Shown: piece after piece, positions 7,246 through 45,506 of the stretch | How the letters are laid out: every line of letters begins with the position of its first letter | Position numbering within the stretch: position 1 is the stretch's first letter | Assembly: GCA_029834535.1 (NCBI GenBank) | Contig: JAQMWT010000200.1 | Span: forward strand, 1 to 64,000 | DNA: 64,000 nt | Origin: Chrysophaeum taylorii | Lineage: Eukaryota > Sar > Pelagophyceae > Pelagomonadales > Pelagomonadaceae | Direction: 5' to 3' | Program-made: the position numbers and the translations under genes | The notes under the pieces: model-generated | The model's input: the letters and a program-made list of their open reading frames with translations, nothing else | What the model was told of the DNA's origin: nothing | Database searches by the model: none

Positions 7246-8889
7246 TTAGGTATCTTCTTGGTCTGAGTCAGTAGCATGGTGCATACCTAGAAGAGAACGA
7301 AACGTGGCAAAGTCGGATGCAAGAGGCTTTGTAAAGCCATCAGCTACATTTAACTTGCCAGGGACATGGTGAACACGAATCTTCTGTAGTGCGACATATT
7401 CGCGAATTTTGAACCATCGAGTAGAAAGGGCTTTGCTGCGAGAAGAGCCGTCAGGGTTGTTGGGAGTGTGCACAGCTGCAGTATTATCAGACAAAAGAGG
7501 TAGGCATCTGATGAAGCGCATATCCTCGGCAATAGGATTGTCATCAGCGTCAGAATCGGATGGAGGGTCAGCTCGCGTATTCATGTAGAATGTCGGATTA
7601 ATAACAAACGAAAGCTCAAGAAGTAACTTACGGAGCCAGACTGCTTCGTCAGCGCAGATGCTGAGACCAATAAGCCCAGCTTCGTGGGTAGAACACGAAA
7701 CGATGGGTTGTAGTTTGCTTTTCCAGGGCGATGGGGCAGTTGAACAGGTAGAAAACAAAGCCAGTAGTGGACTTCCTGTCTTCCTGTTCCAGCGAAGGAG
7801 CATTGTCAGCATCCACCATAGCGACTAGAGGGTCGAACTTGCCAGTAGCAATGTCTTTGTCCCGGTAGTCGACTATGGTTGACAGGTCAACTCTGTTGGA
7901 GGAAATGACGCGTTGATGATCTTCGATAGCGTTCCCTTTAGGGTGAAACCAGAGACGAAGAGCTCGATTGGCAGTTTTGCTGAGGTACCTTGGGAGGTGA
8001 CAGAGCATTTGGACATGCACATAGGTGGGAGAGTGCATACCTCGGGGACAGCGTCCTAAAGCTAGGGGGAAATCGGGGCTACAAGCAACTTGCATGAAGA
8101 CCAATTTGCCAAGTAGAGTAGCGAAGTGACCGTGGATATAAATTTCCACGTCGGTAGAAGGCGAGCCTTCTTTATGAGTGAAAGCGGACGACATAGGATA
8201 CTTCAGTGGAGTGAGATTTTTTAATATAGGGCGATCGTTGAATAGTGCTTCTAGTTTGGCGTGGACATCTAACGATATGGATCCATCTGGCGTTCGGCAG
8301 ACACGCATACCCAGAAGAGTATGGACGGGCTCGAATTGTTCCACGGAAAAGCGCTCGTGTAAGTAAGACTCCTAATAATAAATTATTGTAATTCTGTGCG
8401 GAGAGTGTCGTCATTCAACACTATAACAATATCGTCCACTGCTAAACTGCAGATAACGAAGCGAGCGTGCGTAGACGTGCGAACATATAAACAAGTATCC
8501 GCATGGAGTCGCTTGTATCCAAGACTCCGAAAGAAGCTGTCAATCTCATTGTTCCAGAGATAAGGAGATTGTCTGAGTCCATAGAGGGATTTCAGCAGCG
8601 TGGGTAAACGGCGGCAACGGTGTTTGTCGTATTGTGGGTCGAGTAGTTTGATTCCATGCGGGAGCTGGACGTAGACGTGTGCGTCAATGTCGGACTGGAC
8701 GAACGCGTTGGGCACGTCACGGTGGTAGACCGGTAGGTTCTTGTAAGCCGCAATTGCTAAGATGACACGTATAGCAGTCATAGTTGCCATAGAGCTAAAC
8801 GTCCCAAAGAAATCTGCGCCAAGTGAAGCTAGAAATCCACGCGATACTAATCTGGTCTTGTGCTCGATGTAATGGCCAGACGCGTTCAT
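7246..8889 (-). pseudogene. Element B reverse transcriptase and RNase H
   Basis: Typical Copia RT signatures are visible: KTRLVSRGFLASLGADFF at the fingers, LPVYHRDVPNAFVQ, LYGLRQSPYLW, and the catalytic box AVDDIV in place of the usual YVDD. The RNase H part shows ADNAPS, ERKSTTGFVFY-like and KLNVADGFTKPL motifs near the end. It aligns with C's RT-RNase H at 24.8-27.0 kb. The reading is broken in places. In the family these enzymes copy element RNA into DNA. Confidence 0.85.
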
Positions 8890-9075
8890 CTTGATCTTGA
8901 GGACGAGCCGGCTGTCAATTGGACGAGTACACGCATCGGGTAGAGATAGTTTGAAGCAGCCGAAGCGTACTATGTCGCGTAGTTCCCTTGCGATGGCCTT
9001 GACGTAGGCTTGTCTGTCTTCAGGAAAATGGCCTTGAAGACACTTGAGTTAGTAATCGTCAATGGACACGACGGC

Positions 9076-11949
9076 CTATTGGACCTTGTATTCGTCCGGA
9101 CCTACGGTGGCTGGAGAGCCATAGTTTAACGACGTTTCGGTCGAAGCAGTGTAAAGGACTTCAGGATATGCGCGAGTGGCGCAAGTGGAAGGGGTAGAGT
9201 TGTCAGGTTCCAAGGCGACCACAAGGAGTGGTTCCTCGTGAAGTACCTGGGTGATGTACTCGGTAGAGCATATGCGGTATTCCGGCAGGTCAGACAATTC
9301 GGCGGATGTAGCGCCAAACTCAGATGGCGAGTGATCGATGAGACTGGTGGGTGCCAGGTAACAGTAAGCGTATTGCAATGGAGAGACACCAAACGCGGAA
9401 GCATGTTCCATGAACATAGCGACAAGCGAAGACGGGAGGTGGCCACACGGAGTGTCATCGGTGAGGGGGTGTGTAGCTACTGGAATGCTGGATGCGCATT
9501 TCGTTTGCGAGAAAACACCATCAAGTAAGGGATAGCGAGACAGAAGGTCGGTGCGCAATGGAAGGAGGTGTTTGACCAGCAGAGCCTGTTCCCCCTCTGG
9601 GCAGAGAGCCGTCCAGTGGATGCCACCAGAGGTGTTGAGGGCGGAGAGGGTGGGTGATTTGAAATCGAGAAAGCGATGTTGAAGGTCCCAGCGGAAGCCA
9701 GCGAGTTTGCCACCAGCGGCTTTATAGGCACCAACCGTAGAAAATTGGAGCCGAGCATTGACAGAAGTCATGGAGGAGGCTTTGCGCTGGTTGGGACGCT
9801 TAGTCCCCGGGACAAGTTGAAGGTTCTCTTGAGAGAACAAGTCCTTGTACGAGGGAAGAATTGGCGGTGGCGAAATGGTATTGTCGTCAGCCGGAGTATT
9901 GTCGTCAGCAGGAGGTGAGGCTGCTGGTGTAGGCTTAGGGGGATGGGGCGGAGTCGGCGACGGAGCAGGAGCGGGAGGGTGCCCCGTCTCAGTATGAATC
10001 CCCATCTGCAACGCATCATCGGGGTCTTCATCTCGATGAGGGTTAATGTCGAAGGATACTGGCGGAGCATCAGGTGGAGGAGCATGTTCAGGATCCAAGG
10101 TGGAGCGGCGAATCATGTAGGTGAAGGTCAGTTTGGAGGTGATGCGAAGCTGGCCATTTTCAGGATCAAGGACAACATCAGCTTGATGGTCAACATGAGG
10201 AGAGACAAGTGGATTTTGGGAGTTGGCGCAGCACAGGTAGAGATAGCGTCGCCGAGAGGGCTCATACTTGTGGTGTTCATGAGGCTCAAGGAGGAGGAAG
10301 CACTCGCTGCCAAAGATCTTGAGGAGATCATGTTGAGGTGTTGCTAGTTGATTATACAGAAACTGCTGAGGGCTGATGATGGCATGGTGAATGCGTTCGA
10401 GTGAGGCATTTGGGAGGATTTTGTATGATTGAATGGTGTGGATCACAGCCCACGGGAAGTGGATTGCAGGTTCCACGATCTTGGCGCCACGGTAATGAGC
10501 ATCGAGAAGGTCACGGAGGCGAGTTGAGGAGGCAGGAGCGATAAAGCCTATGCTCTGTTCGACTTCGTGGTTACAATGGTGAAGGTAAGGCGGGAAAGCA
10601 ACAAGGTTGATGCCGTGCTCGACCCTGTAGGGAGTAGTGATGTGTTGGCTGAAGTACGGCCGGAACGCGTCGGAGTATACTGTGCGTAGATGCACATTGA
10701 GTTGTGTCTTGCAAAAGGCATGTAAGTAGTCTAGTGCTTGCGTAAATTCGGTCGCGTTGGTAGTGCGAGTGAAGTAGGCTAGTAGGAACTTCGAGAGTAG
10801 TTCTTTGAAGACAATAATGTGGGTGAAGCCACCCCATTCAGAAGGTATGGTTACGTAGCCACCATCGCAAGCCCAGACTTCACCGGGTCGGTGGGTCTGT
10901 TCAAAATTGGGCTTGGTTTCGTTATTATGGGCGTGACGGTGGCGTTTGTCGTGGCAAATGCAGTCTATGCACATATCCCTGTATGGAATATCGGATGCTG
11001 AGAAGCCAGGGCGAGCAAGGACGTCTGGGGCTTTAGCAGCAACGTTGTCCGGACAGTGATGTACGTTGTGGAAGCGGCTGGCGCGTTCTTTGGTATTTTG
11101 GTATTCGACGGTGCCATGGGCGGGCGATTTGCGCGGAATAGCCTTGACCGGAATGTGTTTCTTCCGACGGACATTGAATTTGAGTTCAGTGGATGCATCT
11201 AGTGATGGGGCATCAGGATCATCGCTGGTGTCCGCATCATCAGCAGTGGGGGTTGTAGAGAGGGCTTCTTCAGGTGTTATTCCTGAGGAGCGGTAGTTTA
11301 ACGACTTTTCGGTCCAGCTGCAGTTGGAAATGCGGCTCATGAATGCATCCGCCTGAAAGATAGTATCTGAACTGTGACTGGAAAGAAGCAGTTCGCAAGT
11401 GAGGAAGGTAGATACATAGGTCTTCTTCAAGGTAGCATTGTCATGTTGAAAGGAGGGGTCCAACATAAGTGACTTCATATCGACGACCACGCGACAGATG
11501 TGAGTGTAAAGGGTGTGATAAGTGCCCGCAGGTAGGGCATTGCTGAGTAGGTCGCAGCATAAGTCTTTCTTCAGTGAGAGTAAGAAGGACGTCTGGGAGC
11601 GAGTATGGTTGCTGGCTTTGATAAGCTCGGCTCGAGTAGGGTAGCGGAGTTTGCCATTGCGAGGGTCCAACAAGATTGTATTAGCATAACCCCTGATAGT
11701 TGGCAATGGAGAAGACATAGAGTGAATTTCGAATCCAAGCTTGCGGTAGCTGCCATGTAAGTAGCCAATATACCGGCTATGAGAAAGATGGTAATCTTCC
11801 AAGGAAAAAAATCTGTCCTTGAAAGTGAATTGATCGGAGGTTTGGTTGTATGAGAGACAGTTCGGCATATCAAGAGAGCACTGTTGGAGTAAGTTGCGGA
11901 TGGCAGGGACAGTGTTGTGGGCTGTGTTGACTGGGGGGTAGGCTTGCAC
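9076..11949 (-). pseudogene. Element B integrase with long N-terminal extension
   Basis: A 957-residue open reading. Residues ~1-270 are an extension of unknown function shared with C. A zinc-binding segment follows (NVHHC and, 30 residues on, MCIDC; HHCC pattern), then the catalytic core with ACDGGY, VYSDAFRPY and NHEVEQSIG as likely D, D, E sites. The C-terminal half holds a Pro-rich linker and leads toward RT. In Copia elements integrase precedes RT, as here. Three short stretches contain the element's recurring SLNY mini-repeat. Confidence 0.85.
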
Positions 11950-12054
11950 TAGCCATAAATATCCCTGAAACGAATCGAGATGGAGCGTCTTATCGGCGGG
12001 GTTGTCGCTGGCGGTTATGGTGCAAGTAGATCCATGTGCGTCGATGGAAGCCTG

Positions 12055-13172
12055 CTATTTGCTCGCTTTGTTCTCAACTAGTAAGTTGCCGTCAGAGTGG
12101 TGTCCACCGGTAAGGATGTGGATATTGAAGGTAGATGAGGAAGTTGTAAGAAATAACCTAGGTGCGGGCTGGTTAGTTTCGAAAATCGCAACATAGTAGG
12201 ATACAGGTGTAGGGTTGTTCGGCGAGATTCTGGCGAACAAATTGTATAGAGTGACGAATGCCTTGAGGCGGAGAGGATTTGAAGATCCAGGTAGTGGTTG
12301 ATTAGAGGATCTCTTGAAACCAAGGTGATGATAGGAACACTCCGAGTGCGTTTTGTGAGTATGTTGTTCGAAAGCTTGCTGTGAATGAAGCCGGAGAAAA
12401 AGTAGGTTGAGGGTCTCAAGCTCATAGAAGCTTAACCGAACGGAACCAGTGCGAGAGTACACAGGAAGCGTCTTGGGAGATTGAACCAGTGGTGGATCTG
12501 GGTAAGTGCGAACCCAGCCTTGAGATAGAGTCTTGGAGAGCCAGAGGGTTTTAGGCACCGGGCTAATAATATCTGATATGTCCAAGAAGCGCCTCGGGTG
12601 CTGGTTCGGCCAGGACAGGATGTCCATGGGTCCAGTGTTGTACCTGCGAGCAATGCAGATCCATCGTTCCCGAGATTGGTAATCGCCGCACAGATAAGTA
12701 GGGAAGCGGTCGACTACATCAACGGTGTAGTCCAGTGTGGCGTGAATGAGGTTAGCCACGGAGATGTGATCCCTGTGGATACACTTGTGAGGGGGTGTCA
12801 TCTCCGCAAGTAGGACTAGGGGTTTTAGTAGTTTGATGACAGATAGCATACTGTCAAAGAGGGAGTCGTCGAGCAAACTGACCAAGTCGGATGTTTTGGT
12901 GCTCTTGAGAAGATTTCGGTTGGTGCAAGGGGGAGTGATTTCTATCACATCACAGTAAAAATTCCGTCTTTCATCTTCCGTTATAGAATGGAGATGATTG
13001 AGGAAAGAAGGTGTAGAGATTCGAAAATAATAATCATTGGAAAGTGTTTGCGTAACATGCGTACAAGCGTTTCATCGGACTCAACGACAATCTTAACATT
13101 GATGTTTAAGCCCAAGTCATTAGTGGCTTGTGACAGAAACGCAGGTGTTGACAATCCAGAACATAATAGCAT
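12055..13172 (-). pseudogene. Element B cytosine-C5 DNA methyltransferase-like domain
   Basis: Between protease and integrase lie pieces with the ordered motifs of cytosine-C5 methyltransferases: motif I-like LLCSGLSTPAF (~13.17 kb) with acidic VVESD after it (motif II), the motif IV-like EITPPCTN with the catalytic Pro-Cys pair (~12.93 kb), LVLLAEMTPP at the motif VI position with its Glu (~12.8 kb), and GDYQSRERWICIARR (~12.67 kb), a very good match to motif VIII (GxPQxRERvfiig). A later SVRLSFYELETL resembles motif IX. In known enzymes the motif IV Cys attacks cytosine C6 and S-adenosylmethionine gives the methyl group. The region is broken. Target specificity and past activity cannot be judged. 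Confidence 0.75.
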
Positions 13173-13232
13173 GACCGTTGGTTTGCGAGAACCATTGTTG
13201 GTAGTTGATAAGAATGCTGGGCGAGTGCGCAG

Positions 13233-13907
13233 TCAAGGGGGAGGTGGAGTATTGTTCCCAACATATTCATTCTGCTTCCGAAGGTTGAGAAGCAGAGTGC
13301 GCAGCCACGGCCGAGTTTCGAGCTTGGTGACCAGGTAATTGTAATAGTGACAAAGGTCACGGTTTTCGTTGTACCTCTTCAGCGGGAAGGATATTGAACG
13401 TAGCTCAAGGTCCCTATCGCACGCAAGAGTGCAAGGTAGGCACGGTAGTGCCGGGAGGTCGTGGTCGACGTAGTGAATGGGCATATGCGCGTCTTTATCA
13501 AGTAAGCTACTGAGATGCGACATATTTGGCTGTTCCCTGACATTATGAGTGACAGTTAGCTGTGCCTTGTTCCACTCGGGGGCACTTAGGATAAACAAGT
13601 GTCGACCCTGCACTGGCTTGAGGAATAGGGCGTAGTCAAGCTCGACGTAGCCGATGCCTTGGTGAGCAGGTAGGGGAGATACGATATTTTTGGTGATCAT
13701 AATAGGCGACACCTGCTGTTGTCCAGTGGCAGTTTGGACAACTGGGGCACATTTAGGGTCTATGGGGACAATATGATTCGGCAAAGCAAAATCGAATGTG
13801 GTAATCAACGAGATGGAGGCACAGCTATCCAAGTATAGAAATTGGAAACGAAGGGGGGGATTATGGTCTCTCCGGTATTTGGTGAGAGAAGCGTTTTCGC
13901 GAGGCAC
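13233..13907 (-). pseudogene. Element B aspartic protease-like region
   Basis: The N-terminal part shows FLYLDSCASISL, a hydrophobic-hydrophobic-Asp-Ser pattern like the active site of retroelement aspartic proteases, where the usual Gly is Cys. Element C has YADTCASQHV at the same place. The rest (PLPAHQGIGYVELDYALFL) aligns with C (ALPKHPNVGYVKLDVALFL). Position after gag and before the methyltransferase supports the call. Confidence 0.6.
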
Positions 13908-14069
13908 ACTCGTGACACTGGTAGAGGGGATGCTGGCTGCGAACGAGTTCGTTAGAGTAAGTAGTTTTGAGGTGACCCCAGCTTGTGAAAAGGGAATAGG
14001 AACGACGGGCGCGGTAGGTTCGCCGTTGTCCTTGCCGAGACCGTTGTTAAGATCGAATGGTGAGAGGTC

Positions 14070-16053
14070 TTATGGGTTACTCGATAATGTAGTATTGGCC
14101 GCTGCTTGATCGGAGCTCCTACGGCACATTGCTGCAGTGACATGTGACGAGAGCTCAGTCAGCCGCTCAGGTGATAATTTTGCTATAGCGTCAGCAGTAA
14201 AATTGACTGATTCCGCGGGAGTAGTGGCTGGTGAAGAGCTGATGCCACTTGTGTTAGATGGAGTAGAGGAGTTGGGTGCAGACACAGTAGGTTGGTCTCC
14301 CCCATAGTTTAACGACGTTGCGGTCGAAAGCAGGTGCACGTCAACATTCCGAACGATACCTTCGGCATAGGAAAATTGATCATTTAAGCGGGGCAAGTCT
14401 GTATTATCGTATGGGTTAGACGTAGTGGCGATAATATCGGCAGATTGCAACAACGTTTCAAATAGCTTTGTAATCTTATCTTGCAGCTGAGAGGTAGTGG
14501 TAGTTTGATTAATGTATTTGGAGAGTTCGCGGAATTGATCTTTGAGTGCATGCATAGCATGCTTAGTGCGATCTAACAATTTCATATCCGATCGAGAAGG
14601 TCTGTCGAAGGTACGAGCATACTCAGGTCGGTCGTTAGATTGACCAGGACCGCGAGCTCTGGTGACATAGGAGCCACCGGACCGGTAGTAGCTAAGATCG
14701 TTGGGAGAGAAGGGCTGACTAGCGTCTTTTGAGTTACGTAGGCGTCGTGCGTTAAACGCGGGTTTCGACTGTTGTCCATTGGCTGAATTGGCAAGTGACG
14801 CAAATACACGTGCTGTGTGCGCCAGTTCAGTGTCTGTTGAGTCCAGCAGTGGGGTTAGCAGTAATTTGGGTTTTTGATGTGTGGACTATCCTTCTACGAA
14901 AGGGATCCTAGAGACTGGCGGTTCAAGACGTTTTTTATCGCTTGTAGTATTGGACACTGAGTTGTAGAGGTCCAGTGCGCACTCAAGAATAGCTGAAGAG
15001 TCAGAAGGATGACATAGCCTGTTAGCTTCGGGTTGTGCTCTGGTGGAAGAGCGTGTCTCGTAGATGAGGCACCAGTCGACCCATCCTCTATCGTAGCGAT
15101 TGTTGCTGGTGTTATCGGCGAAATGGCGGTGAATTTCTTCGTAAATTTTGCTGCAGAGCGTGGATTCATCAAACTGTAGGTCAGTTTCTTCCTGATTAAG
15201 TTGGAAAGAGAGATGTCTGAAGGACTGCACGCATTCAATGAAGACATGTACATACCAGTTGGGGTTATACACAACAGTATTAAATTGCTGTTTCAGATAC
15301 GAAACGTCATTACTAGAGACTGTTTCGTAGAGGTTAAAGGCAATGAGCATGATAGCTCGAGTTTTATTAGGGTGGTAATGCCGATTGTATACCTCGGTAA
15401 TGGCTGGCCAGGCCGCAAGAGCGGGTTTCCCCACACTTTCGTGGTTAAAGAAGGTATATAAAAAGGTGGCATAGGAAGATTGGTAGGTTTGCCGATCGGA
15501 ATGTGAAAGGGCAAAGGTGGACACTGGAGCGTCAATTCCTGCATCAAAGGCAAGTTCACGAGGATGCTCGCGATTGAGCTCCCGTTCAGCGTCTAAGAAC
15601 AAGTTATTTATTTCTGGGCGAAGGGCTTTGACCTCATTATTATAGCAGACAGTGGCCAACTGTGCAACTTCAAGGTCAGGTAAGTTAGGGAACGCCTCGG
15701 ATGTGAAGTGCCAGCTCTGATATTCAGGAGGCAAGTCTTCAACATCTGGGAGGTTGAACTCCTCCACTCTGGCGCGTTGCCAGGCCCGGAAGACCCGGTC
15801 GAGAATCCTATTGCGCTTGACTTCGTAGTCAGGGCAGGACCTCGTATAAGCCTCGTACGAGTCGAACTCGAACGGCTCCTGCGTGGTGGAAACGCAGTAA
15901 TTGCTTAATATGTTTCACTTGAAGTGAGACCTTGCGACTTAGGATCTGGAATCGGTTCCCATCATTGAGATACTCAACAACAGGGGCTTCTAATTTCAAA
16001 ATACCCGCACCAGTGACTGCATTGGGTGCGGCTCTTGCTGCTCGTTCAGCCAT
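14070..16053 (-). pseudogene. Element B gag-like region
   Basis: Broken coding region from a Met-Ala-Glu start near 16.05 kb. Its middle, with FLYTFFNHESVGKPALAAWP and HYHPNKTRAIMLIAFNLYE, aligns with C (FLYTFFYLESQDKPALAMWP; HPNKLRAVMLLAYHYYE). A coiled-coil-rich C-terminal part (14.07-14.58 kb) follows. No CCHC zinc knuckle was seen. The gag role is inferred from being the first gene and from size. Confidence 0.65.
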
Positions 16054-16474: not shown

Positions 16475-16878
16475 TGTCCAGAGAGCTACACTATTATGTG
16501 TGCGACACTTGAACATTTCACGCCTATCTCTACACGAGGGTTTTCTCTTCGTAATACGGCCTTCCCTCGTTCCTCCCTTCCTTCCTTACCCTTCCGCAAT
16601 TATATTTTCGTGACTATGAAGAACCCAGTCTGAAGCTCTTTCCCAACATGGAGTAGGCCTCCAGGTGCGTACCGTCAGGCACGGGGTTTTCTGTTTAATG
16701 AACAGAGGCCTCGTTCCTCGTTGTCAGTGTAAACGCTTCTATGGGACCTAATGTCCTTAACGAGTTAGGGCTTAAATCCCTACCTTGTGTAGTAGCATGT
16801 GGCAAGCGGAATGGTCTGTACACGCCTAAGACTGCACGCAGTCTCTACCATGTACCCGGAGAGGGTCAAATCTCTCCA
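16475..16878 (+). repeat. Element C 5' LTR
   Basis: Starts TGTCCAGAGAG and ends TCTCTCCA, giving TG...CA ends. It is repeated in the same orientation and at the same length at 29386-29789. The primer site follows directly. The left neighbour is the 5' region of B. Confidence 0.85.
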
Positions 16879-16892
16879 TGTTATGGGCCCAG
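16879..16892 (+). promoter_or_regulatory. Element C primer-binding site, half-tRNA type
   Basis: TGTTATGGGCCCAG directly follows the LTR. Thirteen bases (GTTATGGGCCCAG) are complementary to the anticodon arm of eukaryotic initiator tRNA-Met (CUGGGCCCAUAAC), not to its 3' end. Drosophila copia is known to prime from a cleaved 5' half of this tRNA, and this site fits that mode. Confidence 0.75.
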
Positions 16893-18153: not shown

Positions 18154-18379
18154 GTTTCCTTCTATTCCCCAACAAAAGACTGACTGCTCGAGAATTAATC
18201 CATTCTTCAGTCTCAAGTCATCCTGTTTTAAAATAGCATGTTGATTTGTTTGGTCTTGTAAATAAGCCCACGCTGAAAATAGCGTACTGTACATAGAACC
18301 CGCACTCGATAAACCCTTCATTCTTATGTGTCGAATATGTCTATCAATTCTACAACCTATTCCTTTATAGGTCACAATC
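18154..18379 (+). other. Element C leader, right part
   Basis: Short untranslated stretch between the Helitron remnant and the first gag codon of element C. No feature recognised. Confidence 0.4.
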
Positions 18380-20349
18380 ATGTCAAAACAAAAACCAGTA
18401 TTCACTACGGATATCTACGAGCAAGAACAAATCCTCGTTGATAAAATTAACGCAGGATTGCGTTTCCAAGACAATTCAACCAAGGTGAGCTTGCAAATTG
18501 AGGTGCTTCGCAGGCACATGACTAGTCCATTTGTGGACGCGTTATTCTGCTTCGATTCATATAAAGCTTACACCCGGAATGCTCCGGAGTATAATCAACT
18601 TCTTGAACAAGAAGTTGATATCATCTTCGCTCAATGGAAAGCTGAACGAGTAAACGATTTAAACTTACCTGATGAAGATGCCCTGTTTGATCATCTTAAA
18701 ACTTGGCACGTCAATTCATCACATCAACTAACAGTTGATGTCCGTAATAATCTCGAACGACTTTATTACCAAGAGTCGTATAATCTCGTTCGTCCCGAAT
18801 TAAATGAGGATGTTGAACGTGTCCTCGATTTATTAGATACCCACTCCCTAAATCAATTGTGTATGATTCTCCTCTAACTACCATATCCTTTACAGGTCTA
18901 TATAATACCGACTGGATCAAACACTGCGAAACTTATGCTGGTTTCTTGTACACATTTTTTTATCTGGAATCACAAGACAAACCAGCACTCGCTATGTGGC
19001 CTCAATATATATATGCACTTACTGCACATCCTAATAAACTACGTGCAGTAATGCTTTTAGCTTACCATTACTATGAGACAGTGTCTTGTACAGATGTTAC
19101 TGAGCTTAAATCTCAGTTTAATCGAATGTCTTTAAATGTTAATTGGTATGCCCATGTATTTGTCGAACAACTCCTTGCCTTCCAATCTCAGGCAAAGCAA
19201 TTAAATAATGATGAAGCATCAATCCAATTTAATAACTCCATAATCACTCTTAAAGCTCACGAGGAGATCTACCGTCTATATGCTAATCCCTCGGATCACG
19301 AGCGCTATTCTCAATGTTTATTGGAATGGTGTAAACTCTACGAGACACGCTCTGGGAACAACTCGATTCACGATCCTGAATTGTTAAAGCTAGTTGATCC
19401 TAACGACGTTCGTCCGCTATTGGAGTTCTTGTTAAAGGTATACAATGAAACAAAGTTCTTCTCTAACAGACGCTTGGATAAACCCGTTTCCTGGATCCCT
19501 TACATCCCTGGTACTACCGCTACCAAGCCACCTAATGTATTATTGATGGATACTATTCATCAATCCCACGACTCTCTAAACAACGCTTACTCGTTGTTAG
19601 ATACTGTAGCTGGACAGTCTGGCTTCAACGCTCGTAAGCTTCGTAATGCAAAAGACAAAGCATCGACAATTTTCCCTCGTGACACGTCGTACTATCGTCC
19701 ACCTTCAAATTATAACGTCAAAGGTACCAGCTTCGATCGTCCTGTCTACTCACCTTCCTCTAACCGTAATGCACGCTCTAATATGTCTCTTATGGACCGG
19801 GCTACTTATCAAGTTGATCGTCTTCGCCACCTGTTTGGTAAATTACAGGAAGCGAATCCCAACCCCTCTACCGACTCTAAAATGGTACAGGAGGAAATGA
19901 AAAGCTTACTGAGTACCCTCTGGACAACCGCTTCTCAAGCTTCGACACAGTCCTTAGATCCTGACGAAGCCACCCAAGTTCATCTCTACTTATCTCGAGT
20001 TGATACTATATCCAATACCATTGTGAACCTCTTAGAATCCGATAAGGAATCCCATGTTTCAGAAGAAAAGTATCAAACTGAAGCATCTGCTCCTGAAGCG
20101 TCCCCCAGTGATGCGGAGCAGAGGGGGACTGCTAATACAGAGAAAATGTTCCACACTTTTCTGTCCATTAAAGATGATGAAATCAATAACATCCCTCAGC
20201 CGCTATTGCAGCACATAAATGCTAAAGCTCAGAATGCTATCGTTCGTCGTCAAGCTCGGGGAACTTCCTCGCACTCTGAGCTCCCCAATAATCTACCCAA
20301 CGAAGATAATGAAGATGACACATACCCCCCTGTGTTGCTACCAAATTAA
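18380..20349 (+). pseudogene. Element C gag-like region
   Basis: Two frames cover a gag-like protein from MSKQKPVFTTDI onward. The middle aligns with element B (see there). The C-terminal part is rich in charged and polar residues and predicts helices (MDRATYQVDRLRHLFGKLQE). A short stretch DAEQRGTANTE is encoded by a purine-rich mini-repeat that recurs at 24.3 kb. There is no zinc knuckle. The region is broken. As first gene it would supply the particle protein. Confidence 0.65.
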
Positions 20350-20372
20350 ACACTGGTTTTACACTCGTCATT

Positions 20373-21113
20373 GTGCCTTCCGAACAAACGCAAAGTTTCA
20401 TGACACAGTACGTGTTTGGTCAAAGCTCAACACATGCCTGTTATGCAACAATGCTTAAACTGTACAACGAGTACAATTTGCCGCTAATGACTACGCCAGG
20501 ATATGCTGACACATGTGCTTCTCAACATGTAATTAACTTTAAACGTTATGCTGATCCTATCCACATCGTAAAGCTACCCGAGTCCTTATCACCTGCTATC
20601 CAGACTGCTACGGATACGCAGAGAATCACACATGCTATGATTATAAGGACCGTCATTCCCGCTCTCCCAAAGCATCCAAATGTGGGATATGTAAAGCTAG
20701 ACGTTGCGCTTTTTCTACCCAAGCAAAACGACCATAACGATCCCGATCTGCACATCATCAGTATGACTCAATGGGGAGAAGATAAACTTGGTATACATCT
20801 TTATGGAGTTGAATTTAAAGGACAATCATCTATCCAGAGTAAAATTGATGATAATGTCAAGATTACTTTGTTTAGACTCAGTAACCTGTTGCCAACTCTA
20901 CCAATTTATTCGCTACAACAAGCAAAAGCGCGTAAAATGGAACTTCGCTCACTACAGTTCAGACTATGTGCTTTTAATGAACAACGCGAAATGCTTAAAC
21001 TATATTCCACCCTCATGGAACGCGTAATTTACGTCCCATGGCTTAAAACCATCCTGGAGTCAATGCATTCGCAGCTGCCTTACATACGCAAGCATTTCCC
21101 ACCTCCCGTATGA
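20373..21113 (+). pseudogene. Element C aspartic protease-like region
   Basis: A 246-residue reading with PGYADTCASQHV, a D-T-C-A variant of the retroelement protease active site, and a body aligning with B's protease. The C-terminal third (ARKMELRSLQFRLCAFNEQREML) also aligns with B (DLELRSISFPLKRYNENRDL). Its end lies 18 bp before the methyltransferase-like frame. Confidence 0.6.
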
Positions 21114-21131
21114 CGCAAGGTTACCACACGT

Positions 21132-22190
21132 TTGCTTCACACAGTAACTTCGTCTCCTAGCCCACGAACACCTACTGTAACTCTACTTTGCTCTGGGATG
21201 TCCACTCCTGCATTCTTGGCTTGCGCTTCTAATGACTTGCAAATCAACATCAACGTTAAAGTTCTTGTTGAGAGCGACGACAATATCACGCACATGCTAC
21301 GAAGACGTTTTGATAATTCCATCGAAGTTTTCCCATCCCCACCTAAGTTTCTGACATATCTCCATCGAGCGTCGGAGGCTGGACGTGCACGATATTACAC
21401 CGATATAATGGAATTGACGTCACCATGCACAAATCGCAACATAATCAGTGGGAGATCCATTTCCACCTTCGAGCGTGATATGGATGATTCCTTGTTTCCA
21501 AGTGCTCTAAGTGTACTTGAGCTTTTAAAGCCGCTTGTTCTTTTCATGGGAATGATACCACCACACTCCGCATCGTATGAAGACCATATACGAGTTGCTA
21601 ATCTCATCTTCTCAACGATGCACTATACGGTGGATATATGCGACCGATTTCCATGCTATCTGTGTGGAGATCATCAAGCCATATAAAGATGGATCCTCGT
21701 TGCACGCAAATATAACACCGGCCATCTTGATCTGCTTTCATGGCCTAACAAACAAGTCACTTCCTTTCTGGACATTGCAGACCACGCTAATTCCATCAGT
21801 CGCAAGTTAATAGTCGACGAACCTTGGACGCAGGTCTTTCCTGACGTACCATTCGTGTCCACACCTAAAACCTACAACACTTTCAGTCGTACAGGATCCG
21901 TGCGCTTAGCTGTGACTGAGCTTGAAAACTTAACTATGCTGTTCCTTCGTCTGCACTCTAATAAAACAGTCGAACATCCCAGTCAAGATGAAATGGAGGG
22001 CATTTCTAACTTTCGCCTGTGATTATTGACTAATTCAAGAAAACCACTTGTTTGCATGAGATCCCCTATTGAACTCAAAGCTTTCGTGCTCCTCTATAAT
22101 ATTATGGGACGCTTATTCCCTAAATCTATCACATTACCTGTGTCCTCTCGTATTACAACTATCGAATCTAACCAATCATCTCACAGGTTA
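21132..22190 (+). pseudogene. Element C cytosine-C5 DNA methyltransferase-like domain
   Basis: The frame starting at 21132 gives motif I-like TLLCSGMSTPAF (~21.18-21.22 kb), acidic VLVESDD (motif II), MELTSPCTNRN with the catalytic Pro-Cys (~21.42 kb) and YLCGDHQ at the start of motif VIII (~21.66 kb). Further on, SVRLAVTELENLTMLF and IELKAFVLLYNI match the same C-terminal pieces in B. The region is broken. The spacing I-IV-VI-VIII fits a compact C5 methyltransferase fold. The two copies support each other, since B keeps motif VI and VIII better while C keeps the I-to-IV stretch. Confidence 0.72.
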
Positions 22191-23540
22191 TTTTAAATAA
22201 ATCCTCTACTTCCTCATCATTTACATCACCGGTGGAAGACATACAGGCGGAGACATAACAGTTTCTAACTCCTCTTCTAAATACCAGGCACATATAAATG
22301 CTTTTGGCGAAACCTATACCTTCCTAACACATGATGCCGGAATCGATAAGACTGCTTCTCTCGAACCTGTTACTGGTTTTCTTTGGCTTTGCCAAGCATA
22401 CCATCACAATAATGAAAATCAAGACACGCGTCGTTTAGTACAAGCACTGGTCACCTATACTTCTCCTGTATTTCACGATTCTTTTGTCTTCTACCCTCAG
22501 GAAAATCGTCTCGAGTATATCGATAAAATGTTTGCTTTAAGTGACATGCATTTGTCCCAAAGCAGATATCTGGGCTTTATTACATCAAGCGATAGGAAGA
22601 TGGGTGCCAAAGTTCATTCTATATACACTCCCACTCCTACCATTCGTGGATTTGCTAATATGCTCGTGTACGATCCACGACTCGATCGCATCCGACACTA
22701 CTCAACTCGCGAATTGGCACGCGCCAATAACTTCACAGCGCACCAAATCAATTTTCTTCTGTCTTTGTCCCCGGACCTATGCTGTGATATAATCGCGAAT
22801 GCTATTCCAGCTGGAACATATCATATAATTTATAAACATTTGTGTCAGCTTGTCTATGACTTGCGTAAATTAACGCTATCACCATCGTTTGACCCTGATC
22901 ATGCCTCTCTAACCAAAAACTATAGGTCAACCTTCTTCACAAATATATTCCCAACAGATACATCCTTATTACACCAGAGTTCCATTACAATGTTCTACAT
23001 CTCCAATAAAAAACTCTCATGTTGTGATAATCCTGCTTCTAACCACGAACTTCCATCTTTTCATCTCGATTCAGTAGCTCATGTCTTCCTCTCTAACACC
23101 TCATCCGCAGATACATCATCTCCTACTAAAGAAAAACACATTCCTTATAACGCCAAGACAGCTCCATGAGAAGCATGCGCCCTTCGATAAGAAAGTCATG
23201 CCAGGGGCACCCTTGCATTTCGAGATGCGCAACAACGAGCTACCAATTTTCACAACATCCACCATTCTAGTGATTCTCAAGCTATAAAAGCTGTTCAGGT
23301 TATTGCCAGTCCTGGACACCACCCATCTGACGTACCCTACCGTAAGTTCTGTGTGGATTGTACGATTCATAAAAACGCTTTCCTCATCCACATCACCCTA
23401 CCAAGCAACCATCATCCGAAAATATTTTTCAACCTGGTGAAGCCCGGGCATGTGACGGTGGTTTCGTATCTGTGCTCTCGGAATGGGGATCCTTTCGACA
23501 TATCATTGTTTTTTAATGTCTCATTTCTAAATTTCTGTTA
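22191..23540 (+). pseudogene. Element C integrase N-terminal extension
   Basis: The extension seen in B recurs: LSDMHLSQSRYLGFI, PTPTIRGFANMLVYDPR and LCCDIIANAIPAGTYHIIYKH align with B (LEDYHLSHSRYIGYL, LPTIRGYANTILLDPR, LCCDLLSNALPAGTYHTLYTH). Function unknown. Near 23.35 kb the zinc-binding CVDCTIH matches B's CIDCICH. The region is broken. Confidence 0.65.
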
Positions 23541-24903
23541 GTGTACTTTTGTCGTAGCACTAACTCCAGCGAATTTTGTAACGCCCTTGAGTTTGTCCGC
23601 AATTTTTGCTCTACTTATGTTCATGTACAACTAAAACAAATCTATTGTGATTCCTTTAAACCCTATTTATCTCAGCATGTTACAACCCCCTTCCGTGTGG
23701 AACATGGTATTAATATGTCCGCGCCCCCCCCCTTACTTACATGTCTTTAATCATGAAGTAGAAGCCGCTGTTGGTCACATAGCCACTGCCGCGTCTACAC
23801 GACTCCGGCATATGCTTAATGTATCCTATAAAGGTCACCCCCTAACAGATCCGGCACCACACTACCCGTGGGCTGTTATACATGCCATCCAATCGTATAA
23901 TCTCCTCCCTAACGTTTCCCTCGAACGTATTTACAATAAAGTCCTAAGCCCCCAACAAGTTTTGTTAGACCAATGTAATGTTCCCCAACAGGACTACCTC
24001 AAACCTTTTGGTTCTGTTTGTTATCTGCATTTGGAACCTAACGAATTTCATAAATATGAACCCCGATGTCGTCCCTACATCTACTTATGTGGTGCTAACG
24101 TTATAAACCCTTTAATAACACCCCATGTTAATCATTTAGCCGATGTTGTCCTTAATCCCGAGAATGGTCAAGTCCGTGTTTCCTCTAAACTGACTTTTCC
24201 TCATCTTATTTCTAAATCTTCTCCCGATTATGAACAGCATCCACCTCCCGCACCTTCACCCGACATTCCCTTCTCTGTTCACAGCACCCCCAATGATGCG
24301 GCGCAGAGGGGGAATGCTATGCCTACCGACACTGACCATGAGAGGGGGACTTCTTCTTCTCATTTCCATGCTCCCTCTCCCGCTCCCGCATGTGCTCCAG
24401 CTGCTTCTGCACCCGCTACTTCCGCCACCACACCTACATCTGACGTGTCTTCCAACACTTTGCCACTTTTACCATCTTATCGGTCTCTCTATTCCCAGGA
24501 TGTCCTACGTCTCACCCGTGGTCCTCATCACCCTCAGCCTCGTCGCAAAACCAATCTCAAGGATGTTCTTACTCGTATTGCCTCGCCTACTGTTGCCGCT
24601 TATAAACAAGCCGGTGGTACGCTTGCCGACTTCAAGTATGACCTCTCCAAGCAGTACATAAGCTCTGCGACCCCACCCTCCACTCCCTTCATCTTGCTCA
24701 TGGCATCCACTGGACGGCTATACCTCCAGAGGGGGAATTTACACCATCCCTTCATCACCATGTGCACCAAGCGATCTCACAGTCCTCTTCAGTTATGTGT
24801 CATAGGAGCCATAGCCACCCATCGCCTGATGCTCCTCATGTTCACTTCTGCGACGACGTCAACCTTGCAGACTTTCACCTTCCTCAAGCTCTCGTTCATT
24901 TAA
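23541..24903 (+). pseudogene. Element C integrase core and linker
   Basis: Shows IYCDSFKPYLSQHVTTPFRVEH (second Asp) and FNHEVEAAVGHIA (Glu), matching B's integrase, then PLTDPAPHYPWAVIHAIQSYN and a long Pro/Ala/Thr-rich linker. Two copies of the purine-rich mini-repeat lie in the linker (24.30 and 24.35 kb). In the family this enzyme inserts the DNA copy into the genome. Confidence 0.8.
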
Positions 24904-27035
24904 TTTCTGAACATGCTCACGCCTTTCAAGTTCCTCCCGCTCAATATGTTTATGCTTTGTTCACGCCCCACTCCATTTTGGATCATAATGACGCTTCTTA
25001 TGGTGCCTCCGAGCCTCATCTCTCCGCCATCGAAGACTATATCACCGTGCAATCGCATTACATTGAGGCCCACCTTGGTGATGCTCCTCTACTAGTTGTT
25101 CAACTCGTCGAAGATCCCGATCACGCTCATCTGCACGATAATGTCGCTTCTTACGCGATTACTCATCTGACGACGACTCATTTCCCCAGCACGGTTGGTT
25201 CGGACGAATACAAGATTCAAGCCAAAGATATCAAAATTGATGAATATGAGTTGAACTGCCTCAAAGGTCTCTCAGACGCTGATCGCAAAGCTTATGTTGC
25301 TGCCATCTCCAAAGAGATTTTTGACATTGTTAAGTTTGGCTGCTTTAAACTAGCGCTGCCAATGGTCAACTCAAAGCCTATTGACACCCGCCTCGTCCTA
25401 CGTATAAAAACCAACGCTGCTGGTCAGTACATTAAACATAAAGCACGCCTGGTCCTACGAGGATTCTTAGCCTCTCTGGGCACCGATTTTTTCAACACAT
25501 TCAGCCCTATGGCACAGCTTACTGGCATCCGTTGTGTTCTGGCGCTAGCAGCTCATCTGCGACTTCCCGTCTACCATGTCGACGTCCCTAACGCTTTTGT
25601 TCAAGCTCCCATCGATTCTCATGTCTATGTCAAACTGCCACAAGGCATTTACCTTCTCGATCCCGAAGATACTAAATACCAAGGCCGTCGTCTCCCAAAG
25701 CTACTTAAATCTCTCTATGGATTACGTCAGAGCCCTGCCCTTTGGAATCAAACCATAAACGGCTTCTTTGATTCATTAGGCTATACACGATTTCGAACAG
25801 ACACATGCATTTACGCTAAAGTCCAAGCTGACGCTACATTTCTAATTTGCACGCTCTCAGTAGACGACGTCGTCATTACTTGCACTTCGGAAACTCTACG
25901 TCGTGAGTTCCAGCAAGCCCTGAAAAAGGAATACTCAGTCGACACCTTCGAGGAAGTCCATACTCTGCTAGGCATGCGCATAACGCGTACAACTGATGGT
26001 TCTATATCACTGGACTGTCAGGCTAAACTTGATGCATTGTTCGAAGAGTACCCCATTTTAATGCAGTTACGTCCCACTTCCACACCGATGTCACCATCAA
26101 CCACGTATAAAACTGGAGAGCCATCTTCTGATATGGACAAGTTCATCCTTCACACCTTCTCCACTCTACTCGGCAAGCTCACGTTTGTCCAATTGGCCTG
26201 TCGCCCCGATCTATCACAAAGTCTTAGTCGTTGCTCTCGAGGAATGCATAATCCAGCATTTCTACATGTTCAAGTACTAACAGGAACGCTCCGCTACTTG
26301 CGCAAGCCCGAAAATCGCAATCTTCGCCTCTGGTACTACTCTGGTTCTTCCGCTCTAATGGACCATCTTCGACTTCTTATCGGTAATCGTACTGACATGG
26401 CCACCATGTTGGATTACACTAAAGAACAAGTTAATTCAGGTAATTTTGATCCATTGGTCGCGTTCGTTGATGCCGACAATGCACCCTCTTATGAACAAGA
26501 CCGCAAATCTACAACCGGTTACGCTATCTTTTTGTTTGGTTCTCTCATCACTTGGAAGTCTAAGTTGCAGCCTATTACAGCTACTTCTACGCATGAGAGT
26601 GAACTTATCGCCCTTAATATGTGTGCCGATGATGTGGTCTGGTTACGCAAATTGTTAACGGAAATGGCATTCGCTATAAATCCTCACTTCTATCTCCGCC
26701 AACCTTCAGGGAAAGACTTGCTACTAGATTATGATGCTCACGACAATCCCCTCCCATCGGACATGTCGTTCATACGTAACAGTCCTATACTGGGAGACTC
26801 TGCCTCTGCTATTCATCTTTCCAACAATCCCGACAGTGCGACTAAGGCCAAAGCTATCAGCACACGCTGGTTCCGTATTCGCGACTACGTACAGTTAAAA
26901 CGTATACGTCTACATCATGTTTCCGGTACCCAAAATATCGCCGATGGATTTACTAAACCCTTTGGAGCTCCGCTCTTCAGCAGATTTCGCACGTTACTCG
27001 GCTTACAACAACCCATAGCTCAACAAGATGGTTAA
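24762..27035 (+). CDS. Element C reverse transcriptase-RNase H
   Basis: A 757-residue open frame. The first ~140 residues are a spacer containing ITVQSHYIEAHLGDAPLLVV. RT follows: ARLVLRGFLASLGTDFFNTF, LPVYHVDVPNAFVQAPID, LLKSLYGLRQSPALW, SVDDVVITCT (catalytic DD) and LLGMRITRTTDGSISLD. RNase H shows AFVDADNAPSYEQDRKSTTGY, ATSTHESELIALNMCADDVVWL, DSASAIHLSNNP and TQNIADGFTKPF. All Copia landmarks are present and this part looks whole, although the element around it is broken. Confidence 0.92.
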   Translation: MHQAISQSSSVMCHRSHSHPSPDAPHVHFCDDVNLADFHLPQALVHLISEHAHAFQVPPAQYVYALFTPHSILDHNDASYGASEPHLSAIEDYITVQSHYIEAHLGDAPLLVVQLVEDPDHAHLHDNVASYAITHLTTTHFPSTVGSDEYKIQAKDIKIDEYELNCLKGLSDADRKAYVAAISKEIFDIVKFGCFKLALPMVNSKPIDTRLVLRIKTNAAGQYIKHKARLVLRGFLASLGTDFFNTFSPMAQLTGIRCVLALAAHLRLPVYHVDVPNAFVQAPIDSHVYVKLPQGIYLLDPEDTKYQGRRLPKLLKSLYGLRQSPALWNQTINGFFDSLGYTRFRTDTCIYAKVQADATFLICTLSVDDVVITCTSETLRREFQQALKKEYSVDTFEEVHTLLGMRITRTTDGSISLDCQAKLDALFEEYPILMQLRPTSTPMSPSTTYKTGEPSSDMDKFILHTFSTLLGKLTFVQLACRPDLSQSLSRCSRGMHNPAFLHVQVLTGTLRYLRKPENRNLRLWYYSGSSALMDHLRLLIGNRTDMATMLDYTKEQVNSGNFDPLVAFVDADNAPSYEQDRKSTTGYAIFLFGSLITWKSKLQPITATSTHESELIALNMCADDVVWLRKLLTEMAFAINPHFYLRQPSGKDLLLDYDAHDNPLPSDMSFIRNSPILGDSASAIHLSNNPDSATKAKAISTRWFRIRDYVQLKRIRLHHVSGTQNIADGFTKPFGAPLFSRFRTLLGLQQPIAQQDG

Positions 27036-29380: not shown

Positions 29381-29387
29381 GAGGGGG
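29381..29387 (+). promoter_or_regulatory. Element C polypurine tract
   Basis: GAGGGGG lies directly before the 3' LTR, the standard site where plus-strand DNA synthesis starts. Confidence 0.7.
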
Positions 29388-29789
29388 TCCAGAGAGCTAC
29401 ACTATTATGTGTGCGACACTGGAACATTTCACACCTATCTCTACACGAGGGTTTTCTCTCCGTAATACGGCTTTCCCTCGTTCCTCCTTTCCTTCCTTAC
29501 CCTCCCGCAATTATTTATTCATGACTATGAAGAACTCAGTCTGAAGCTCTTTTCCAACAAAAAGTAGGCCTCCAGGTGCGTACCGTCAGGTACGGGGTTT
29601 TCTGTTTAATTAACAGAGGCCTCGTTCCTCGTTGTCAGTGTAAACGCTTCTATGGGACCTAATGTCCTTAAGGAGTTAGGGCTTAAATCCCTACCTTGTG
29701 TAGTAGCATGTGACAAGCGGAATGGTCTGTACACGCCTAAGACTGCACGCAGTCTCTACCATGTACCCGGAGAGGGTCAAATCTCTCCA
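29386..29789 (+). repeat. Element C 3' LTR
   Basis: Same length and orientation as 16475-16878, ~95-96% identical by eye. It ends TCTCTCCA. The sequence beyond (GGTACTCGCG) does not repeat the left flank. Confidence 0.85.
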
Positions 29790-29817
29790 GGTACTCGCGT
29801 TCTTGGCTGGCTTGCCA

Positions 29818-40540: not shown

Positions 40541-41252
40541 AAATTTTCTGTTTCTACTATCCCCGACGATCTCTTGATCGCCAACCCCGCCCTTCGTGGC
40601 ACAGTGACGCGCTCCACCTTGGACTATTACCAGAACAAGGCCACCTTCTCATACAAACCCGCCAACGCCTCAAAACTCTCGATTTCCAAGAATGAACACA
40701 TCTGCCAAATGCTCGCGCGCGTTTGAAGAAGAAGCCCTTCACGGATCTAGGACTCGTCGACGCCGACGGCACCCCCTATGCCTCGATGACCAATGTCTCC
40801 AATCTCTTGGCATTCACATTGCTGCACAATATCACTTGTCGCAACATCCTACTCTCACCGCATGGAACAACACACTCCGCTGTTTTCATGCCTCAGAGTC
40901 TCAATGTGCTTATCATTTGGATGGAGCCATCACCGGCACTGTCGCTACTGCCGTCGCATGTGGCTACTTCCCGCGCGCCTCGCTCACCCTACATTCCAGC
41001 CCCCCCCCCCCGGATAATGGACTGTTCCCACCAACCCGCTGTCTTCTCCCCAACGCACACCTATTCCCTGGATGTCCCCAATGGCACCGCCTTTCTGGTC
41101 GTCGCCTACACCAACTCCTTGGCCGCCACCGCTCACAGCTGCTCGCGCCCCTCCACGTGGGTCCACTACATGAATCGCTCGCATCCCGGCTTCGCCGCGA
41201 TCGATTCACGAGGGTGAATTACTCTCGATGACATGACCCCACGGGACTCATA

Positions 41253-42973
41253 ATGTCCGAAGCACGTCCCACTTACGCGGACTATGTCGGCCACATCGGA
41301 GACACGCTCCAGAAAAGCACCAAGTGCTACTCGGTCACTGGCTCGTACCCAACCAACACGAGCTACTCCAATGCCTTGTTTCTGATCTCTCCCGACCACA
41401 CCCGATATGCGACCCTCAACGAAATCGCAAAGTTCGGACACCACTCGGACCCGGAACTGCTCCGCATGTTCCAACAGCACCCGCCGTACTTCGCGTTCAA
41501 GGCACTGGCCAACGCCGTCCCGCACAACATGCTGCAGGCCAAGTACAGCGCTGTCCTCGCACTCCACGAATCGCACCACCACGTGAACCTTCACATCGAA
41601 TAGGCAACCACTTACGAAATGGCATTCCCAGCCCCGGAGACATCAACCTGGTTGCAGAATTCTTCTTGAACATCTCCAGCCGTCTCTTAGCAGAGGAGGA
41701 CCTCAACCTCACCTCCCTCTTCAATGCCGTTGCAGATGCTCACCATGCTGCGATCCGCAAGCCAAGCAAATCGAAAAACCTCGAGACGCTACTCGCCGAG
41801 GCCACAGTTGCTACTAAAGTCCGAGTTGACAAGCGACCCAGCCCCCCTAGCGCTTCAACTGCAGCCCTGACCCCCTTCCACAAGCCTGGCACCACTCAGC
41901 ACGCAAAAAGAGTGCTTCTGGTCACTCGCTGGCACCGCATTCACCATCAGCAACCCGAGATTCTTCGCCGCACGATTGCCGCCAACGTAACGAATCTCCG
42001 CTCAGGTGATGATCGGTATTTGCAAGACTGCGGCGAATGCAAGCGCTTCAATCGCATGCCAGCTTCCGTCACAAGAACACTTCCTGGTCACAGGATGAAC
42101 TAGCCTATGCTCCTGGCCAACATCTCCACATGGATGTCTCATACCCGAGCATCAGCAAATGCTATGGTGGCTTTCGTTACATCATGCATTTTGTGTGTTT
42201 TATTTCGGCACACAAATGGGGTATACTTCCTGAGGAAACTAGACGCGCAGGACGTTATGGCTGGTATCCTCTACGCGGTCAATGTGATTAAGGTCGAATT
42301 CGATGTAAGTGTGAAAATCATCTCATCTGATGCCTTTTCCACTTTCCGCTCCGAAGCTTTCCACCCGCTCAAGGTGCAACTCGGTATCCAGTTTCAAATC
42401 ATTCGTCGACACCTACACCAGCGGAACTTCGCGGAAAACATCATTACGGAAAACACAAGAGGCACTGTCGTCCGCCTCCTTAACCTTCGCAGTGTCCGCA
42501 TCGAAGGAAAGCCTATTGCCGCCGAGTATTATCACCCGTTTGCTCTGCTGCATAAGATCCAAGCCGACAATCAACGCTCTCATGGACTGCCCTCGCGCAC
42601 TAACATGACCTGCACCGTTCCCCGGCGCATCATGTCACCCATGGCACCGCTCCTGAAGCTCCTTCCCTTTGGCGACCCTGTCACCTTTGTCTATTCTCAC
42701 AAAGCCACAAACTGGAACCCTCCAGCGTCTCCGCCTCTTATTTTCATAGCAACAATTACCTCCCGAACCTCCCCGGCACGGACCGATTTATCCGTGATGT
42801 TCATAGCTCTATCCTGCTTGTACATCAGGGGCGATATGGAAAAATCGTCACCTCTAACGACTTCCACGTTGATGCAGACATGCCAGTCAACCGCAACAAG
42901 GAGATCGAACGGATCAAAGCACTCACGCAGATCCCAACAGAGGCGCGGCAAGAGGACCCGCTCCCAGCTATAA
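41253..42973 (+). pseudogene. Element D integrase region
   Basis: Shows HHQQPEILRRTI and YLQDCGECKRF (HHCC zinc site), GQHLHMDVSYPS (first Asp), IISSDAFSTFRSEAF (second Asp region) and AAEYYHPFALLHKIQADNQR further on. The order fits a Copia-like integrase. The upstream reading (41253-41603, SEARPTYADYVGHIGDTLQK) recurs in A at 1.5-1.84 kb. Broken. Confidence 0.65.
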
Positions 42974-45474: not shown

Positions 45475-45506
45475 TTTGATCCAGATTTCGCTCACCAAGT
45501 TCAATC

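Follow-up and report, generated by a model that had tools for sequence, protein, structure and literature searches.

C5-methyltransferase-like domains in the Pol region of copia retrotransposons from a probable ochrophyte genome

Introduction

Retroelements that encode cytosine-C5 methyltransferases (C5-MTases) have been published in two lineages. According to the available text of PMC5890265, they occur in LINE, DIRS and Gypsy elements, and their hosts are dinoflagellates and a charophyte, as the preliminary description of the locus studied here also states. The same text describes the Copia elements of Symbiodinium as devoid of a DNMT domain. In yeast, de novo methylation of CG was observed for two SymbioDIRS-Dnmt3 domains; methylation of element cDNA is the role that the authors propose. 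The KnitGypsy-Dnmt3 and SymbioLINE-Dnmt domains gave no methylation in yeast; the authors call these results inconclusive, since human DNMT3B was inactive there too, and for SymbioLINE-Dnmt they suggest RNA as the target. More recently, the available part of PMC12344493 (2025) places some DNMT3 members in 'LTR Copia and DIRS' elements, citing the 2018 paper (PMC5890265). Since the 2018 paper says Gypsy, this mention of Copia may be a slip. A survey of stramenopile DNMTs (PMC9998398) refers, in its available part, to MTase-carrying retroelements only by citing the 2018 paper. As for host enzymes, DNMT5 of Cryptococcus is described as a maintenance MTase without de novo activity (PMC9246332, available text). 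No ochrophyte copia element with an MTase was found in the open PMC literature.

Results

Element B carries an MTase-like domain between protease and integrase

The window, that is, the whole stretch of 64,000 nucleotides analysed here, contains copies of three related copia elements, A, B and C (Table 1). Element B displays the order gag position, protease-like frame, MTase, integrase, RVT_2 and RNase H-like end. The preliminary description had reported ordered C5-MTase motifs in this element, and these were confirmed in two minus-strand frames, 12981-13232 with motif I (LLCSGLSTPAF) and 12055-13071 with motifs IV (TPPCTN), VI (LLAEM) and VIII (GDYQSRERWICIARR). The position that it assigned to the domain also holds, between the protease-like frame and the integrase of the copia polyprotein. 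The two MTase frames overlap by 91 bases; a frameshift that lies past motif II and ahead of motif IV thus splits this copy. No LTRs of element B were found in the window. Taken together, element B is very probably a decayed copy belonging to a large group of Ty1/copia LTR retrotransposons that have a C5-MTase domain in Pol, in the interval between protease and integrase.

Table 1. Positions of the retroelement parts and light-harvesting genes in the window
Feature	Position	Strand	Evidence or remark
Element B, MTase motifs I-II frame (LLCSGLSTPAF ... VVESDE)	12981..13232	-	aligned with element A
Element B, frame of MTase motifs IV, VI and VIII plus the C-terminal region that follows	12055..13071	-	aligned with family rows
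Element B, protease-like frame	13233..14069	-	DSCA motif by eye; without Pfam hit
Element B, two gag-position frames	14070..15914	-	position alone; no Pfam family above cut-off
Element B, post-MTase region and integrase	9076..12054	-	rve at residues 388-470, PF00665 E 2e-4, below cut-off
Element B, copia reverse transcriptase (RVT_2)	8383..9048	-	PF07727 E 2e-35
Element B, C-terminal RT and RNase H-like part, two frames	7246..8371	-	resembles L029 3' end by eye; no Pfam hit
Element A, coding region from gag position to RNase H	18371..27035	+	RVT_2 within 24642-27035; PF07727 E 2.3e-42
Element A, MTase from motif I	21114..21683	+	stop codon within motif VIII; motif-VI Glu replaced by Gly
Element A, 5' LTR	16476..16881	+	95.3% identity to 29387-29792 over 406 bp
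Element A, 3' LTR	29387..29792	+	
Element C copy	40556..45710	+	88% and 83% identity to L010, two stretches
Two similar, closely spaced light-harvesting genes in the same direction, PF00504 chlorophyll a/b-binding (FCP-like)	33201-33839, 36247-36903	-	

Element A spans 16476-29792 and matches the DNA of element B at four stretches in conserved order, and to the extent of this similarity its parts are arranged as in B; no target-site duplication was seen in its printed flanks. The window copy of element C is 5'-truncated and begins past motif VIII, so that MTase motifs I-VIII are gone. The window copies of the MTase-bearing elements are defective and belong to a large system that selection maintains.

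Several further features were observed around these elements. Element A has two extra plus-strand ORFs between RNase H and the 3' LTR, at 27107-27838 (243 aa) and 28008-29270 (420 aa). The 420-aa ORF, whose best Pfam match (FAM76) is below the cut-off, resembles a minus-strand ORF beside element B (5944-6621) at 23-31% identity over short stretches (best E 0.004), and elements A and B may thus share an extra 3' gene, as far as these alignments go. One copy of a 1-kb inverted repeat (17137-18155 and 51946-52945, 91% identity) separates the coding region of element A from its 5' LTR. Finally, an 848-aa minus-strand frame at 47833-50379 with RNase H, Integrase_H2C2 and rve represents a second retroelement type, presumably Gypsy-like from its domain set.

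The domain resembles C5-MTases beyond chance

The window stretch 12055-12948 (P0001), taken unaltered, scored 31.9 over motifs IV-VIII against a C5-MTase reference profile. This is the highest score among 294 query segments; the top score among the 292 segments from 36 database copia polyproteins is 25.1. The motif-I stretch alone (P0002) is not significant against the same profile (16.1). Matched to a profile built from ten enzymes (eight C5-MTases of bacterial plasmids, host DNMT2 and host DNMT5), a profile of 17 rows from families A and B reached 46.6 (E 1.8e-5), and motifs I, IV, VI and VIII each aligned with their counterparts, as compared with at most 30.2 for 100 column shuffles and 19.8 for the reversed profile. 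A family B profile (A1) scored 45.6, and the family C profile scored 64.4 against a maximum of 22.3 in 100 shuffles. The signal is confined to the expected part of the element: in a family B copy, L029, the MTase stretch alone scores (33.5), whereas the remaining segments, from gag to RT, stay at or below 16.1. For a SAM methyltransferase of the window that is not of the C5 type (62288-63274, Methyltransf_25), the scores were 23.8 (C5 profile) and 16.4 (A+B profile). The likeness to C5-MTases thus exceeds chance, with the window stretch first among 294 segments and the family profile above 100 of 100 column shuffles.

The PF00145 search proposed in the preliminary description returned no match for the MTase frames of element B in the window (12055-12948 and 12981-13172). 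A family B relative with an open domain, L030, does match PF00145 (20.6 bits, E 3.4e-4), under the 22-bit cut-off, and at E up to 10 the family was recovered in three rows of a 15-row alignment and in two rows of a 17-row one. When the window MTase frames and the family rows were scanned with Pfam and NCBIfam, PF00145 was the sole family below E 0.01 in A/B, with 3.4e-4 as its best value. Family C copies pass the PF00145 cut-off, L010 with 32.1 bits (E 1.1e-7). In the PDB, neither single A/B or C sequences nor the B profile (A1) retrieved an MTase; the C profile retrieved one cytosine-specific methyltransferase (E 0.023). No match up to E 10 was obtained for the B or C MTase stretch in a protein-database search for it within polyprotein-length proteins, and IMG/VR scans for the B domain (plus one A row) and the C domain found none. 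AlphaFold models from the window sequences alone had pLDDT values of 39.0 and 32.1, too low for an assessment of the Rossmann MTase fold. Overall, the C5-MTase-like domain of element B is confirmed as real at the level of sequence.

Catalytic motifs are conserved in part

The motifs are interpreted here by the catalytic meaning that they generally have in C5-MTases. The catalytic Cys of motif IV (PC) is invariant in the 33 aligned rows (17/17 for A+B and 16/16 for C). The Glu of motif VI is found in 15 of 17 A+B rows, the exceptions being the A copy of the window and L063. All 16 rows of family C have Glu-Asn at this position, whereas the Asn is absent from A/B (EMT). For motif VIII, 16 A+B rows extend far enough, and 15 of them have QxRxR; the Gln is kept in 17 of 17 A+B rows. 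In family C the motif mostly reads ISKTR, with the last Arg invariant. Motif I departs from the SAM consensus FxGxG, reading CSGxST in most A/B rows and IAGGL in most C rows. No motifs IX-X were recognised in A/B or C, the profile alignments of both stopping past motif VIII. Judged by these residues, the retrotransposon MTase domain may be active as an enzyme.

Three abundant families in one genome

Three MTase-bearing copia families, A, B and C, are present in the 70.8-Mb genome. The MTase domain was found at no fewer than 119 places for B, 150 for A and 116 for C, many of them fragmentary or with stops, so that the search for more copies proposed in the preliminary description did find them. 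These counts are lower bounds from the candidates scored: 119 of 1117 for B (122 matches), 150 of 831 for A (150 matches) and 116 of 662 for C (125 matches).

In copy L010 of family C, a frame of 1952 aa contains, one after another, PF00145 (E 1.1e-7), rve (E 0.006) and RVT_2 (E 1.6e-38); its rve match, like that of element B, is below Pfam's own cut-off. Among 19 family C loci compared end to end, eight have LTR pairs of 172-208 bp with 94-98% identity, which lie 8.6-9.4 kb apart from start to start, and four more have shorter or weaker pairs. A 5-bp target duplication was seen by eye in three of seven copies (L020, L021 and L024). Judged by these LTR pairs and duplications, family C copies appear to be mobile and young.

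In L010, gag (790-2523) and pol (2487-8342) share 37 bases, read in different frames, an arrangement like that of elements with ribosomal frameshifting. In L029, all coding-strand frames of at least 150 aa share one reading frame.

The place of the MTase relative to the protease is fixed. For 61 of 139 scored matches to the protease frame, the MTase list contains a same-strand match at 0-2.5 kb downstream, and for none does it contain one upstream; since 61/139 refers to the matches listed, it is no measure of domain loss. In 36 of the 61 pairs, the matched protease and MTase stretches are separated by a gap of exactly 219 bases.

The MTase domain is under purifying selection

Among open copies, the median dN/dS of the MTase domain is 0.057 in family A (45 pairs from 10 copies), 0.154 in B (63 of 66 pairs from 12 copies) and 0.154 in C (55 pairs from 11 copies), after removal of pairs with dS of 0.03 or less, with saturated dS or with 100 codons or fewer; because the copies were selected for open frames, these values are biased downwards. 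Synonymous sites were saturated in the A-B pairs tried and in pairs of the window frame with family B. When regions of family C were compared, dN/dS was 0.146 for the MTase (15 copies), 0.124 for RT (5), 0.088 for the integrase (9) and 0.245 for the post-MTase region (12). Purifying selection on the domain in open copies of all three families implies that it does something for the element.

The elements were also examined for traces of methylation. In nine LTR pairs, 10 of 138 CpG positions carry transitions, compared with 32 of the 766 other C/G positions; the difference is not significant (Fisher p 0.12). The observed/expected ratio of CpG is about 0.84-1.04 in the elements and 1.17-1.42 in host stretches; the direction is as expected, but the comparison is confounded by base composition.

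Origin of the elements and of their MTases

Among integrase-RT relatives in the protein database, a transcript of the pelagophyte Aureoumbra lagunensis comes closest (P0003, MMETSP0892; E 8e-194); its RT is 48.5-52% identical to those of families A and B. P0003 stems from a transcriptome, so relatives of these elements probably undergo transcription in a pelagophyte. This affinity, together with the PF00504 light-harvesting genes of the window, agrees with the earlier view that the host is ochrophyte-like. Within the ochrophytes, the host resembles a pelagophyte. In a midpoint-rooted tree of 36 RT domains, A and B group with P0003 (support 0.997), C groups with P0004 (0.913) and all of these form one clade (0.959). 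This clade is apart from plant, fungal and Closterium copia and is joined next by P0016 (0.866).

The MTase domains were also compared with known classes of C5-MTases. In hhalign comparisons of A/B with single reference C5-MTases, scores were at noise level (at most 24.7), and those with host DNMT2 (16.3 for A/B and 18.3 for C) were not beyond noise either. No affinity to DNMT3 was seen in a weak test against a single reference, one DNMT3A domain (16.1 for A+B and 21.0 for C). The C profile is nearest to a bacterial Dcm-type DNA enzyme, Acinetobacter dcm (48.2), whereas A/B showed no preference for DNMT2, DNMT3, DNMT5 or a bacterial type. Identity among the MTases is about 14%. The preliminary description had suggested an acquisition similar to the published ones. 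This stands insofar as a C5-MTase is borne by a retroelement; the published LTR and DIRS cases are, however, DNMT3 relatives, and that affinity did not appear here in the weak test.

A/B and C could have acquired their MTases separately, at the same place in Pol. We consider this somewhat unlikely. Direct comparison of the A+B and C profiles is weak (Prob 4, E 0.01), and motifs I, VI and VIII differ between A/B and C, as separate uptake would lead one to expect. On the other hand, the RTs of A/B and C cluster together, separately from the copia elements of plants, fungi and Closterium (support 0.96), the domains of both lie between protease and integrase, and motifs II, IV, VI and VIII are in register even in the weak A/B-C alignments. 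A single uptake of the MTase at the base of A/B/C is the simpler, though unproven, reading.

Host DNA methyltransferases

A six-frame search of the genome with PF00145, in which 123 of 474 candidates were scored and which can miss intron-split genes, yielded 57 places over the cut-off. One is host DNMT2 (L001, C634; PDB DNMT2 match, E 3.9e-39). Another is a DNMT5-type gene (L009, C621), a 2086-aa frame with MTase and SNF2 domains that matches PDB 7r76 (E 8.6e-128), an entry labelled 'DNA repair protein Rad8' which we take to be Cryptococcus DNMT5. The other 55 places include 49 of family C, of which 48 overlap places of the L010 domain, while one on C64 matches the L010 domain too. Six further places (on C193, C395, C490, C23, C216 and C683) were assigned to none of these groups. 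No DNMT1, DNMT3 or DNMT6 was identified among the 57 places, and within the same search DNMT2 and DNMT5 are the only non-transposon C5-MTase genes identified.

Discussion

A possible role in element self-methylation

An element that conserves a cytosine MTase presents a paradox, because cytosine methylation is a standard means of silencing retrotransposons. The best overall explanation of our data, to which we assign a probability of about 0.5, is that this copia group has a selected C5-MTase domain in Pol that would methylate the element's own cDNA, with upkeep by DNMT5. As to the course of events, we propose tentatively that the MTase methylates new element cDNA and that host DNMT5 copies the marks. 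The MTase, either cut from Pol or still joined to it, would act within the particle; being encoded in Pol between protease and integrase, it would share the particle with the cDNA. There it could methylate cytosines of the fresh cDNA before or at integration, and host DNMT5, by analogy with the maintenance enzyme of Cryptococcus, could then copy the marks. With its cDNA methylated and the marks kept, a new copy would resemble resident DNA that is already silenced. Such an appearance might limit damage to the host or evade an attack on unmethylated foreign DNA. Self-methylation of the element is our best guess for the likeliest role of the domain. For the cDNA step we argue by analogy with the SymbioDIRS-Dnmt3 domains (PMC5890265); the homology to C5-MTases, the conserved residues, the purifying selection, the fixed place in Pol and the young copies of family C also favour the proposal. 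Against it stand the degenerate motif I, the changes in motif VI (A/B) and motif VIII (C), the unaligned motifs IX-X, the non-significant CpG test on LTR pairs and the lack of methylation by the KnitGypsy and LINE domains in yeast. The suggestion in the preliminary description that the family may methylate its own copies or the cell's DNA, and thereby tolerate or evade silencing, thus keeps the rank of a possibility, the window copies moreover being broken.

Three other readings have to be weighed against this one. An unlikely but credible one is that the domain is a former C5-MTase which has lost methylation and is retained for nucleic-acid binding or for the structure of Pol, for example to guide integration or hold the cDNA. 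The degenerate motif I, the altered motifs VI (A/B) and VIII (C), the unrecognised motifs IX-X and the lack of significant CpG decay in LTR pairs are all compatible with such a loss, and in yeast neither the published Gypsy domain nor the LINE domain showed activity, although inconclusively (PMC5890265, available text). However, a purely structural role would not require a Cys that is invariant in 33 rows or a motif-VI Glu that is missing in just two. It is improbable, but conceivable, that the domain acts on RNA and not on DNA, the substrate being the genomic RNA of the element or the priming tRNA, much as DNMT2 acts on tRNA. Pol proteins are packaged together with RNA. Moreover, SymbioLINE-Dnmt was inactive on DNA in yeast, and its authors suggest RNA (PMC5890265, available text). 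Neither A/B nor C, however, is closer to host DNMT2 than noise (16.3 and 18.3), and the nearest relative of the C profile is a DNA enzyme of the bacterial Dcm type (48.2).

The remaining reading, that the likeness to C5-MTases is due to chance, with four short motifs picked by eye from a long polyprotein, we regard as very improbable. It could draw on the missing Pfam match for the window frames, on the noise-level hhalign scores of A/B against single references (at most 24.7) and on the PDB profile search that returned no MTase for A/B. Yet it is contradicted by the shuffle, reversal, segment and 292-segment controls, by the PF00145 match of the open-domain relative L030 (E 3.4e-4) and by a second family, C, in which a domain at the equal place in Pol is over the Pfam cut-off.

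Returning to self-methylation, a bolder extension of it would be that hundreds of copia elements supply the missing de novo MTase, seeding methylation on their own cDNA and, by leakage, on the genome, with host DNMT5 maintaining it. We consider this a long shot; if true, the methylome of the host would be written by its retrotransposons. In a wider context, the parasite may itself be equipped with the means by which cells keep it silent. Retrotransposons become candidate starters of methylation in DNMT5-only algae, and the question becomes testable. The host would represent a third eukaryotic lineage with retroelement MTases, with three element families in one compact genome.

Comparison with known systems

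Among copia elements, the Aureoumbra protein P0003 is the integrase-RT kin of A/B; as recorded, it begins at the integrase side, and no MTase was found in this part of the element. Plant, fungal and Closterium Ty1/copia elements (among P0004-P0038) have RVT_2 in common with the elements described here, and an integrase domain is listed for most of them. Unlike the window stretch, no segment of the P0003-P0038 polyproteins (292 segments) exceeds 25.1 against the C5-MTase profile. The RTs of P0005 and P0008 are 24-34% identical to those of our elements.

Among retroelements that do carry a C5-MTase, KnitGypsy-Dnmt3 of Klebsormidium nitens is likewise an LTR element with the C5-MTase in Pol and the domain under purifying selection (PMC5890265, available text). 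It differs in being a Gypsy element with a DNMT3-derived domain and a charophyte host, and its stated copies are fewer than those of Symbiodinium. SymbioDIRS-Dnmt3 and SymbioLINE-Dnmt are likewise high-copy retroelements with a C5-MTase, the Ka/Ks of which is mostly below 0.2, whereas their backbones are DIRS and LINE, with a tyrosine recombinase or an endonuclease and not a copia integrase (PMC5890265, available text). New in the present case are the ochrophyte host lineage, the absence of any sign of DNMT3 origin in a weak test, the copia backbone and the place between protease and integrase. Common to these copia families and to the retroelement DNMTs of PMC5890265, as far as its available text goes, are a C5-MTase within the coding region of the element and purifying selection.
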